DNA from: Oscillospiraceae bacterium
GTDB taxonomy: Bacteria > Bacillota > Clostridia > Oscillospirales > Acutalibacteraceae
NCBI GenBank assembly: GCA_015065805.1
Contig: SVPN01000001.1
Coordinates: forward strand, 1 to 64,000
Direction: 5' to 3'
DNA length: 64,000 nucleotides
The notes beneath the pieces were generated by a model, which did no database searches, was not told where the DNA came from, and saw nothing but the letters and a program-made list of their open reading frames with translations. The position numbers and the translations under genes were made by a program. Below are positions 685-35,776 of the stretch, in pieces. Each line of letters begins with the position of its first letter. Position 1 is the stretch's first letter.

Positions 685-847
685 GAAATATTGCTACGCA
701 ATATGAAATAATCCTTCGGATTATGAAATATTTTGCCTTAACGGCAAAATGTGAAATAAAATTTGCCCATATTCGCGCAAGCGAATATTTCACATTTGCG
801 AAGCAAATATTTCATAGCGAAGCTATTTCACTTGCCCGCAAGGGCAA
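685..847. repeat. Cluster of at least seven different short perfect hairpins separated by GAAAT / ATTTC linkers
   Basis: Hairpins read directly: 688-704, 708-724, 730-750, 769-788, 794-808, 814-826, 832-847; linker orientation flips from GAAAT to ATTTC. Confidence 0.85.
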
Positions 848-855
848 ATTTCATT

Positions 856-900
856 GAAAAGAAACAACCTTTGTCTGGTAGACAAAGGTTGTTTCTTTTC
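856..900 (-). terminator. Long perfect hairpin, probable terminator of tRNA-Leu
   Basis: GAAAAGAAACAACCTTTGTCT-GGT-AGACAAAGGTTGTTTCTTTTC, 21-bp perfect stem abutting the tRNA 3' CCA. Confidence 0.8.
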
Positions 901-982
901 TGGTGCAGGAGATGGGACTTGAACCCACACTCCGAAGAACCGGCTCCTAAGACCGGCGCGTCTGCCATTCCGCCACTCCTGC
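901..982 (-). tRNA. tRNA-Leu (anticodon TAG)
   Basis: Reverse strand GCAGGAGTGGCGGAATGGCAGACGCGCCGGTCTTAGGAGCCGGTTCTTCGGAGTGTGGGTTCAAGTCCCATCTCCTGCACCA: 7-bp acceptor stem, long variable arm, GGTTCAAGTCC T-arm, encoded CCA. Confidence 0.95.
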
Positions 983-32879: not shown

Positions 32880-34118
32880 ATGAACTTTGAACAAGCAACT
32901 GCTTACCTGACATCCTTAAAACCCGCCGGCATACAGATGGGGCTTGAGCGTATGCACACTGCCTGCGAAGCCCTGTCCCATCCCGAGCGGGCGTATCCTG
33001 CCGTTCATATCGCGGGCACAAACGGAAAGGGTTCCACCGCCCGTATGATCGCCGCTATGCTGACCGCAAACGGATATCGCACGGGCTTATACACCTCTCC
33101 GATGATCACCGACATCACCGATATGATCCTGATTGACGGTGTTCCCGTGACGCCCAAGGAGTTTGCCGCGTGTGTCACGGCCGTGCGCCACGCCGTCCCT
33201 GAGGGTCTCTCCGAATATGAATGTCTGACAAGCGCGGTATTTGTCTGTTTTCAAAGACAAAAGGTCGATATTGCCGTGATCGAATGCTGTATGGGCGGTG
33301 AAACCGACGCCACAAATATCATCCCTCCCCCGCTTTGCGCAGTCTTTACGCCGATTGCAAAGGATCACACCGCTTTTTTGGGAGACACGGTCGAAGAGAT
33401 CGCCTCGTGCAAGGGCGGTATCATCAAAGACGGCTGTGATGTGATATGTGCCGCTTCGATGGACGAGGACGCGCTCGGAGTGCTTTTTGAAAAAGCCGCA
33501 CAACACGGTGCGACGGTTCACATTCCCGTTGCGGGAGAAACTGCTGAAATCGGTATAAACGGAACCCGTTTTCACCACAACAACCGCGAAGTGCGCCTGC
33601 GCCTTGCGGGTCATCACCAGCACGAAAATGCACTCACGGCTTTGCAGACAATGACCTGTTTACAGCGCCGCGGATTCCGTTTCGATGAAGAACGCGCTCT
33701 TGCGGCATTATCAGCGGTTACAATGCCGTGTCGGCAGGAAATCGTTTGCGAATCCCCGTTTGTAATGCTCGACGGCGCTCACAATCCGCACGGTATCGAA
33801 GCACTTTGCCGGACACTTGAGGAAATGCCGCTTGATACACTGGTGATCGGTATGCTCGCAGACAAAGACTGCGACAGCTGTCTGAAGCGTCTGGCTCCCT
33901 ATTTCAGGCGCATCATCTGCTGCACACCGCCCGATACACCGCGCGCACTGCCCGCCCGCGAGCTTGCGGCGACAGCATTGCAATATCACGCAAACGTATC
34001 CGTTATTTCCGATCCCGTCAAAGCCTTTACAGACGCCAAAAAAACCTCCGCATCCATTGTGGTCGGAGGATCGTTTTACACATCTTCGGTTGTAAGAAAA
34101 GCGATTATTTCAGAATAA
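32880..34118 (+). CDS. folC: Bifunctional folylpolyglutamate synthase/dihydrofolate synthase
   Basis: VHIAGTNGKGSTARMIAAML; GAHNPHGIEALCRTL; start MNFEQATAYL at 32880. Confidence 0.92.
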   Translation: MNFEQATAYLTSLKPAGIQMGLERMHTACEALSHPERAYPAVHIAGTNGKGSTARMIAAMLTANGYRTGLYTSPMITDITDMILIDGVPVTPKEFAACVTAVRHAVPEGLSEYECLTSAVFVCFQRQKVDIAVIECCMGGETDATNIIPPPLCAVFTPIAKDHTAFLGDTVEEIASCKGGIIKDGCDVICAASMDEDALGVLFEKAAQHGATVHIPVAGETAEIGINGTRFHHNNREVRLRLAGHHQHENALTALQTMTCLQRRGFRFDEERALAALSAVTMPCRQEIVCESPFVMLDGAHNPHGIEALCRTLEEMPLDTLVIGMLADKDCDSCLKRLAPYFRRIICCTPPDTPRALPARELAATALQYHANVSVISDPVKAFTDAKKTSASIVVGGSFYTSSVVRKAIISE

Positions 34119-34163
34119 AAAATTTTAAGCGGTCAATGAGCGTTACTCTCTCATTGACCGCTT
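34113..34163 (-). terminator. Intrinsic terminator of the minus-strand 34-35 kb transcript
   Basis: Minus strand AAGCGGTCAATGAG-loop-CTCATTGACCGCTT followed by AAAATTTTTTATTC; no U-tract on the plus strand. Confidence 0.85.
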
Positions 34164-34182
34164 ACATCATCTTCGGCTCCAC
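34162..34182 (-). other. Mini-ORF unit 8: GTG GAG CCG AAG ATG ATG TAA
   Basis: Preceded by AGAGGTATAGTCCC. Confidence 0.4.
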
Positions 34183-34247
34183 GGGACTATACCTCTTCTT
34201 TCTACAGATTTCGAAATTTGCAAGTCATCAGTTGGATTGATCAGACA

Positions 34248-34259
34248 TTACCTGTTCAT
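34248..34259 (-). other. Mini-ORF unit 7: ATG AAC AGG TAA
   Basis: Preceded by AAAGGAAACAGGACCA. Confidence 0.5.
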
Positions 34260-34346
34260 TGGTCCTGTTTCCTTTGAGTAGATTTTTCGACCGAAGCGAT
34301 TGCCTCGATTCAGATTTGAACATGTTTTTGTAAAGTTTGGATGAAA

Positions 34347-34355
34347 CTATCTCAT
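34347..34355 (-). other. Mini-ORF unit 6: ATG AGA TAG
   Basis: Preceded by GAAAGGGACACTCCA. Confidence 0.45.
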
Positions 34356-34435
34356 TGGAGTGTCCCTTTCGATTGTTACTGTTATCGTTTGGAATGCTCT
34401 GTTCAGTTTCCGTTCACCTTGTTCAGTGAACAAAT

Positions 34436-34447
34436 TTACATGTTCAT
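34436..34447 (-). other. Mini-ORF unit 5: ATG AAC ATG TAA
   Basis: Preceded by GAAAGGAACTTACTCCG. Confidence 0.5.
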
Positions 34448-34551
34448 CGGAGTAAGTTCCTTTCGTGATTTGATCCTTGTTATCGATTGATAACGATTTC
34501 AACTTATACTACGTGAAGATTTCGTACCTCATCTTTCTTCAGATTTTCGGA

Positions 34552-34563
34552 TTACGTGTTCAT
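34552..34563 (-). other. Mini-ORF unit 4: ATG AAC ACG TAA
   Basis: Preceded by GAAAGGACTTAACTCCG. Confidence 0.5.
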
Positions 34564-34806
34564 CGGAGTTAAGTCCTTTCACAGATCGTTTCATGGATTT
34601 ACTCGTCTCGGATAACGTTCCCTTTTCGTCATCCGTTTTGTGCTCTATTCAGTTGTGATCTATATGATGGGATATCTCTGTTTTCCGGTCTGTTTACCTT
34701 TTTCCGTTTCAGGAACGACAGGTTTCCGTATCAGGAAATCGAACTGTCTTTCAGCAGGCTCTTTCAAATGCGGTTTTTCGAGATCCTCTCATCGTATAAA
34801 GCTGAA

Positions 34807-34815
34807 TTAGTACAC
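34807..34815 (-). other. Mini-ORF unit 3: GTG TAC TAA (in frame with an upstream ATG at 34824)
   Basis: Preceded by GAAAGGATGAGTCCC. Confidence 0.4.
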
Positions 34816-34831
34816 GGGACTCATCCTTTCT

Positions 34832-34870
34832 CTACTCTTCTTTGGCGAACACATAGTTGCGAATTTTCAT
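34832..34870 (-). CDS. Mini-ORF unit 2: 12-aa peptide MKIRNYVFAKEE
   Basis: Strong AAGGAG 10 nt upstream of ATG; TAG stop just before unit 3. Confidence 0.5.
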   Translation of the reverse strand: MKIRNYVFAKEE

Positions 34871-34918
34871 AGGACAACAGCTCCTTCGCTTGTTGCTTTG
34901 TTGAACCATTCGCCTGAC

Positions 34919-34927
34919 TCAGCCCAC
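34919..34927 (-). other. Mini-ORF unit 1: GTG GGC TGA
   Basis: Preceded by AAAGAGGTGAGTCCG. Confidence 0.35.
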
Positions 34928-35024
34928 CGGACTCACCTCTTTCGAGATTTTACGAAGGGGTTTTCGGGCTCTTTTCCGATCCGTTTTTCGGATCTCTTTT
35001 TGTCCCTTCCCTTTCGTCACCTTT

Positions 35025-35053
35025 ACTATAGCACACGTTTTCGTGAATGTCAA
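35025..35053 (-). promoter_or_regulatory. Sigma-A type promoter for the 34-35 kb minus-strand unit
   Basis: TTGACA-17 nt-TATAGT; palindrome CACGAAAACGTG inside the spacer (35034-35045). Confidence 0.85.
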
Positions 35054-35150: not shown

Positions 35151-35233
35151 AAGAAAAGCGGGGTTCGTAAAACCCCTGTTTTTTACGCTCAAAACACGAT
35201 ATCGGCATATTTATGAACGGAGTTGCATACACT

Positions 35234-35545
35234 ATGACAGAAGAAATGCTTGACGGTTTCATTGACACCGTCGTTCTGATGGACGAAAACGGCGAACAGC
35301 AGGAGTTTGAGGTGCTTGACGGCATCCAGACCGACGACGCGCGCTACATCGCTCTTCTCCCCATTTTTGAAAACCCCGAAGAAGCGGTGGACTCGGACGG
35401 TGAGCTGCTGATCATGCGCGTAGAGGAAGAGGACGGCGGCGAAGTATATGTCACCATCGACGACGCCGAAGAATATGAAGACATTCTTTCGATTTTTGAA
35501 GAGCGTCTTTCGGAGTTTTACGAAATCGATCATCTGGACGAATAA
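35234..35545 (+). CDS. DUF1292 (YrzB-like) acidic protein
   Basis: MTEEMLDGFIDTVVLMDENGEQQEFEVLDGIQTDDARYIALLPI; start assigned at the second Met. Confidence 0.85.
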   Translation: MTEEMLDGFIDTVVLMDENGEQQEFEVLDGIQTDDARYIALLPIFENPEEAVDSDGELLIMRVEEEDGGEVYVTIDDAEEYEDILSIFEERLSEFYEIDHLDE

Positions 35546-35549
35546 GCTC

Positions 35550-35750
35550 TTTCCCCTGCGTAGTACGCGGACCGCTGTCTTATAACCCTATTACAGTATA
35601 ATTTCGGGAGCTTGGCTCCTGCGTCGGATTGCAGACCTCCCCGCCCGGCTTTGACCGTGTGCGGGACGAAGGGAGCGTGAAACCGCGGGGCGGCACCCAC
35701 CTGCTTTACTAATAGCAGGTTATCCTGACAGCATACGGCTATGTGGGGCT
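35550..35750 (+). ncRNA. ssrS: 6S RNA candidate (SsrS)
   Basis: 5' CCCCTGCGTAG..CGCTGTC pairs with 3' GACAGC..CTATGTGGGG; internal GGGGCGGCACCCACCTGCTTT...AGCAGGT is typical of the 6S 3' half. Confidence 0.72.
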
Positions 35751-35776
35751 AATTATATTTAAATGTATATTATCAT

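Follow-up and report, generated by a model that had tools for sequence, protein, structure and literature searches.

Minigenes and start-stop sites have been regarded as oddities of leaders and phages, and their effects were mostly seen on overexpression. In the bar genes of phage lambda and the toxic two-codon minigenes, a Shine-Dalgarno sequence (SD) is followed by a start and, after just one or two codons, by a stop; they are associated with peptidyl-tRNA drop-off, and sequestration of ribosomes and tRNA is expected of them. They are single sites or artificial constructs. The leader minigenes of LEE1, LEE4, axe-txe and ycbK, ORFs of two to six codons with an SD of their own, regulate the next gene in cis, and mRNA protection has been proposed for them (PMC8708949). 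Short ORFs can inhibit translation via release of peptidyl-tRNA, and growth inhibition by minigenes is documented for E. coli (PMC8708949; references in PMC10192219). The STAB-SD of cry3A resembles an SD and matches the 16S rRNA 3' end, away from any normal gene start. It is single, 5' proximal and devoid of start or stop; it binds 30S subunits without initiating and blocks RNase J1, and 30S docking can protect RNA (PMC4113751). Finally, CsrB, CsrC, RsmY and RsmZ are stand-alone RNAs with tandem short GGA-containing repeats.

Here we examined a window of 64,000 nucleotides from an Oscillospiraceae bacterium. An earlier note on this DNA had proposed that it encodes an RNA of tandem translated minigenes, which might act as a translation sensor, a ribosome or initiation sponge or a peptidyl-tRNA sink. 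Like the systems above, its units combine an SD at a workable distance, a start and a stop within few codons, as is characteristic of minigenes. Unlike bar and the toxic minigenes, the arrays comprise up to 12 cassettes in a chromosomal RNA of their own, are conserved across genera and carry an extended 16S complement. Unlike the leader minigenes, the window array ends in a terminator and serves no downstream gene. Our searches, mostly broad and covering open-licence papers, found no published description of such an RNA.

The features of the locus are listed in Table 1. The RNA is present as a single copy in its own genome and the region 34120..35024 lacks a long ORF. The extent given in the earlier note, 34162-34944, was too short as it left out the promoter and most of the terminator. 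In an alignment with two genomes of the same genus, G159 and G240, both promoter and terminator were conserved. Strong promoters were likewise present at the array loci of relatives; TTGAC at -35 occurred in 36/36 syntenic loci with a unit, loci which had been chosen by a promoter rule. For the window RNA and 14 related loci no Rfam family (OLE, GOLLD, ROOL, HEARO, raiA or other) matched above its gathering score. A tmRNA was dismissed as ARAGORN detects only a tRNA-Leu in the window. A Gut-1 RNA was noticed beside tRNA-Leu at window positions 782-982.

Table 1. Features of the array locus and its neighbours in the window.
Feature	Positions	Strand	Basis or remark
Autonomous RNA, about 900 nt	34120..35024	minus	promoter and terminator; convergent with a folC-like gene
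Promoter TTGACA-17-TATAGT, TG ahead of -10	35025..35053	minus	11/12 consensus matches
Unit 1, CGAAAGAGGTGAGTCC-G-GTG GGC TGA	34919..34944, ORF 34927-34919	minus	PWM 20.4
Unit 2, SD AAGGAG, putative micropeptide MKIRNYVFAKEE (ATG AAA ATT CGC AAC TAT GTG TTC GCC AAA GAA GAG TAG)	34832..34886, ORF 34870-34832	minus	relatives keep in-frame stop
Unit 3, GAGAAAGGATGAGTCC-C-GTG TAC TAA	34807..34832, ORF 34815-34807	minus	PWM 17.0
Conserved block without unit (GATATCCCATCATATAGATC..CAACTGAATAG)	34640..34685	minus	same-genus alignment
Unit 4, GAAAGGACTTAACTCCG ATG AAC ACG TAA	34552..34580, ORF 34563-34552	minus	counterparts in relatives
Unit 5, GAAAGGAACTTACTCCG ATG AAC ATG TAA	34436..34464, ORF 34447-34436	minus	counterparts in relatives
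Unit 6, CGAAAGGGACACTCCA ATG AGA TAG	34347..34371, ORF 34355-34347	minus	PWM 10.8
Unit 7, CAAAGGAAACAGGACCA ATG AAC AGG TAA	34248..34276, ORF 34259-34248	minus	sequence only
Unit 8, AGAAGAGGTATAGTCCC GTG GAG CCG AAG ATG ATG TAA	34162..34200, ORF 34182-34162	minus	counterparts in relatives
Intrinsic terminator, 15-bp stem (34163-34127) and T tract	34117..34163	minus	sequence and fold
DUF1292 gene, divergent, synteny anchor	35213..35545	plus	PF06949, E 2.9e-16
6S RNA (RF00013), directly after DUF1292	35550..35753	plus	48.7 bits, cut-off 46.4

The strong terminator and the convergent gene leave no regulated gene downstream on the same transcript, and a leader or attenuator class was rejected for the window RNA. 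That mini-ORFs of this kind regulate a downstream gene is most improbable for the arrays, since no shared downstream gene was noticed among the array loci read. Speaking for it are two loci, L198 and L004, in which single units precede genes, and family f13, where pairing is possible between the first-unit SD (GGUGAGUCC) and GGACUCGCC within the ORF of that unit.

All eight units were found on the minus strand exactly as they had been listed before. TCC is located ahead of the start in seven of eight, the exception being unit 7 (ACC), and the SD-start distance is identical in units 4, 5 and 7 (AGGA plus 10 nt). Unit 8 ends at the terminator stem. For counting, a unit was defined by an SD core 4-12 nt ahead of ATG or GTG and a stop within 12 codons; 2000 dinucleotide shuffles served as control. 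The 908-nt RNA contained 10 matches, two of which are nested ATGs of unit 8, compared with 1.89 ± 1.48 in shuffled sequence, and none of the 2000 shuffles reached 10. When the stop was limited to 4 codons 8 matches remained (shuffled, 0.77), and with TCC required ahead of the start there were 7 (shuffled, 0.08). Nowhere else in the 64-kb window did we find a comparable 908-nt stretch; the next best outside the region had 5 matches, none with TCC. Thus, the shuffled-sequence check envisaged in the earlier note, together with sliding windows, ruled out chance or an AT-rich artefact as the source of the units. The claim of a decayed ninth copy (AAAAGGGAACGTTATCCGAG..) was less fortunate. Aligned relatives show AAAAGGGATCGTTACAAA at this place, with neither TCC nor start; therefore, its descent from a minigene is not evident.

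When 300 family genomes were searched at the DNA level, long matches were obtained in two same-genus genomes and short unit-motif matches in others. In the comparison of the window with G159 and G240, six units retained SD, start and in-frame stop. The stop codons interchange (unit 1 TGA/TAG/TAA; unit 2 TAG/TAG/TAA; unit 3 TAA/TAG/TAG; unit 5 TAA/TGA/TGA), and in some units codon 2 differs among the three genomes. The counterparts of unit 1 are GTG GCG TAG and GTG GCT TAA, those of unit 4 ATG AAC GGT TAA and ATG AAC GGA TAA, those of unit 5 ATG GAC AGA TGA and ATG AAC AGG TGA, and those of unit 8 GTG GAG CCG AAC AAG CAT TAA and ..CAG TAA. The peptide of unit 2 corresponds to MKKRMWFYAKEN and MRKRIFRYVKES in the relatives, with the in-frame stop retained, and to MKRKRFFLLKEF in G037. 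Unit 3 was found in other genera as well. Unit 6 lacks an aligned counterpart in the same-genus relatives, which have other units nearby.

In many of the family's genera, related arrays occupy the same place, divergent from a DUF1292 gene with 6S RNA behind it. Searching 200 genomes with the unit 3 pattern and up to two mismatches gave at least 52 matches among those listed versus two for the reversed pattern. Because loci should not be picked by the motif itself, DUF1292, present in 165/200 family genomes, was taken as locus anchor and the upstream regions were read; folC as an anchor in named genomes led to one distant relative only. A promoter divergent from DUF1292 was observed at 51 loci. 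A position weight matrix (PWM) of the 16 bases ahead of the start detected 135 sites in forward direction, whereas the opposite strand had 9 and reversed sequence 18. The PWM had been trained on units having start and stop; therefore, training-free anchors were also applied, with 98 forward sites against 12 in the reverse complement and 22 in reversed sequence. In about two thirds of the units the start follows one base after the motif. An in-frame stop within 4 codons was present in 42 of 64 RTG units versus 15.3 for shuffled downstream bases, and the other two frames had 8 and 17. RTG units after the first stopped within five codons without exception (34/34). Units without a quick stop were for the most part first units; these encode micropeptides of 10-30 amino acids which are related to one another. 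This in-frame stop pattern is the one expected in sequences under selection for start and stop in a single reading frame. The closest spacing among 59 intervals was 47 nt, leaving room for one ribosome on each unit. Arrays had 1 to 12 units; some loci hold only one.

Taken together, comparison of sequences shows a free-standing unit with tandem cassettes in which SD, start and stop are kept by selection. The homologue alignment suggested in the earlier note supports it in this respect: SD, start and stop are conserved, codon 2 and linkers vary, and stop-codon swaps and frame-specific stops extend across many genera. Judged from these patterns the cassettes very probably are translated. Possibly the RNA is a polycistronic micropeptide mRNA, with MxSEEP-like first-unit peptides of 10-30 residues and a basic MKxxR..KE peptide, or else a source of formyl-Met di- and tripeptides as signals, and the start-stop units serve for tuning. 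First-unit ORFs are related across genera with an acidic N-terminus, unit 2 is conserved within the genus and a distant family has MSPK(E/D)M-like readings whose stop falls on the same codon. The longer ORFs, i.e. unit 2 and the first unit in many relatives, probably do encode small conserved peptides. Yet most units have 2-3 codons and codon 2 is variable (15 different codons among 42 short units); therefore, most cannot carry a specific peptide, which makes this explanation rather improbable.

The similarity of the unit motif extends beyond the SD core to the entire 16S-tail complement (AGAAAGGAGGUGAUCC). The consensus of the match in the cassettes is AAAAGGGUGAGUCC, with the start codon one base further on. 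Because the organism's own 16S gene was not found in the draft assembly, duplex energies were calculated with what we take to be the conserved Firmicutes tail. The tail GGATCACCTCCTTTCT occurs exactly in one array genome (G127) and one-mismatch matches are present in G127 and G157, none of them a proven 16S gene. The predicted duplexes averaged -13.8 kcal/mol; shuffled units had -7.05, and the stretches ahead of long window ORFs, which form a crude set of genes with the first ATG as start, had -8.5. About 4 kcal/mol are contributed by the GGAUCA part of the tail. Since the modelled duplexes are stronger than controls, the conserved UCC probably belongs to the 16S pairing, for which a bulged G is needed.

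About a quarter of the units have AAG, AAA or ACA in the start position; therefore, minigene translation cannot explain everything. Of the proposed tandem translated minigenes the conservation of SD, start and stop and the shuffles uphold the core, whereas the start-less quarter is beyond a pure minigene model. The start-less units had an in-frame stop within four codons in 18/27 cases versus 6.8 expected (0/2000 shuffles); frame +1 also had 13. Within the RNA they seldom occupy the first place and frequently the last. In 26/30 a GTG or ATG is in frame at -8 from the motif end. It is doubtful that GTG at -8 is the real start because no SD spacing remains. Start-less units, mostly with an in-frame stop and an upstream in-frame GTG, were read on the RNA strand at L065, L081, L098, L126, L137, L147, L152 and L160. 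Two genomes from a distant family within the class contain a similar terminal unit, and three copies have their stop at the same codon.

Taken alone, the AAG/AAA/ACA units would qualify as STAB-SD, i.e. as 16S complements which do not direct initiation; the start-bearing units with their in-frame stops do not belong to this class. Docked ribosomes might then shield the RNA in cis from a 5'-3' exonuclease or Rho, as with STAB-SD or leader mini-ORFs, and the function would reside in other segments. This would suit the start-less units, the single units near the transcript 5' end at L198 and L004, and the unit-free block conserved within the genus. We consider it unlikely nevertheless. One 5' site suffices for protection, yet up to 12 units run to the 3' end, and a STAB-SD needs neither start nor stop, yet the units conserve both. 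Further, linkers diverge between genera and no shared core of the tested block was seen outside the genus. Within the block, CATCATATAGAT was found in G037 too, and in the predicted fold the block may pair with the upstream GATGAGAGGATCTC.

The fold of the whole RNA was stabler than shuffles (z-score -6.2, terminator included). Local folding of five units was weak, z being close to 0 for all but unit 1, which had -1.3 (range about -1.3 to 0.3), and local GGR..UCC hairpins were discarded as a conserved feature. This bears on a sponge of the CsrB/RsmZ type in which GGA repeats titrate an RNA-binding protein. The repeated A-rich GGA/GGG motifs, the array layout and the AAG units without start would agree with it, whereas the weak local hairpins do not. 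CsrA (PF02599) was detected in 0/18 array genomes, 15 of those at least 90% complete, and a CsrA sponge was rejected. Unlike CsrB, CsrC, RsmY and RsmZ, the array repeats contain a start and an in-frame stop, and protein binding does not account for frame-specific stops or stop swaps. Titration of a protein is very unlikely on these grounds.

As SD, start and stop were kept through evolution, the design of the RNA seems to serve the capture and retention of ribosomes and not the production of a normal protein. The best of several explanations, to which we give an even chance, is that a stand-alone RNA of start-stop minigenes constitutes a multi-site ribosome-capturing RNA; we infer a function as ribosome sponge or sink. 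30S subunits would bind tightly via the long 16S-tail match, initiate, and terminate almost at once, normally after two or three codons and within reach of the same SD. Ribosomes then would reload or short peptidyl-tRNA would be released, and each RNA would thereby hold several ribosomes. In this way the RNA would reversibly drain or buffer initiating ribosomes together with initiator tRNA. In translation it would loosely match what the neighbouring 6S RNA does by holding RNA polymerase. This reading is based on the 16S pairing, the unit spacing, the published inhibition by short ORFs and 30S docking. The weak local structure of the five units, the strong promoters of relatives and the synteny with 6S RNA also speak for it. 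The likeness to 6S RNA, capture of a core machine, is proposed by analogy only; 6S RNA mimics an open promoter for RNA polymerase and has no structural likeness to the array RNA. Several observations speak against a sink: about a quarter of the units lack a start; first units often encode peptides of 10-30 residues, which a sink does not need; single units upstream of secreted-protein genes (L198, L004) hint at a cis role; and array length varies down to the single-unit loci. The picture drawn in the earlier note is altered by three facts, the free-standing location beside DUF1292 and 6S RNA, the first-unit micropeptide in many relatives and the start-less quarter. Tentatively, we propose that a dedicated chromosomal RNA, back to back with the DUF1292-6S RNA unit, holds several initiating ribosomes per molecule by its near-full-length 16S-tail complements and sets the pool of free ribosomes, so that one locus would harbour RNAs sequestering RNA polymerase and ribosomes. 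If true, a conserved stand-alone minigene RNA would be a natural ribosome-occupying device and would found a new class of regulatory RNAs among gut-type bacteria; with it one could test directly whether RNA serves cells to store or throttle their ribosomes. It would also be a warning that RNAs labelled noncoding may be densely loaded with ribosomes and encode no protein.

6S RNA was in the same place at 10/10 array loci tested, and in most family genomes searched for both it follows DUF1292 directly. The pair looks like a conserved unit; to our knowledge no functional link between DUF1292 and 6S RNA has been described. The strict motif was present in 52/297 genomes of the order and in 29/292 of the class. 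Several of the matches outside the family belonged to gene leaders or to RNAs of another kind; true arrays were observed in the window's family. Family f13 has a different RNA with the first unit only, not beside DUF1292 in the stretch read, and no Rfam match was obtained for its loci L175 and L177. The RNA at L175-L179 is driven by a promoter and has extended conserved blocks (GAAACGATCAAGGTGATAGCT, GGCCGATGGGCATACTGATGAGTATG); its MV(S/T)EE..FAGLAA(A/T)L micropeptide is conserved too. At L198, on contig C49 of the window's own genome, and at L004 the single unit is a 5' leader mini-ORF before a probable secreted-protein gene. A further array, L199 (G118, C5), lies at another genomic site; it diverges from an unrelated gene and has three units of 4-5 codons that begin with GTG. 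The minus strand of L202 (1200-2000), which comes from a distant Clostridia genome, carries two adjoining promoter-terminator RNAs, each ending in GAAAGGGGTGAGTCC, and a similar RNA is present at L205.
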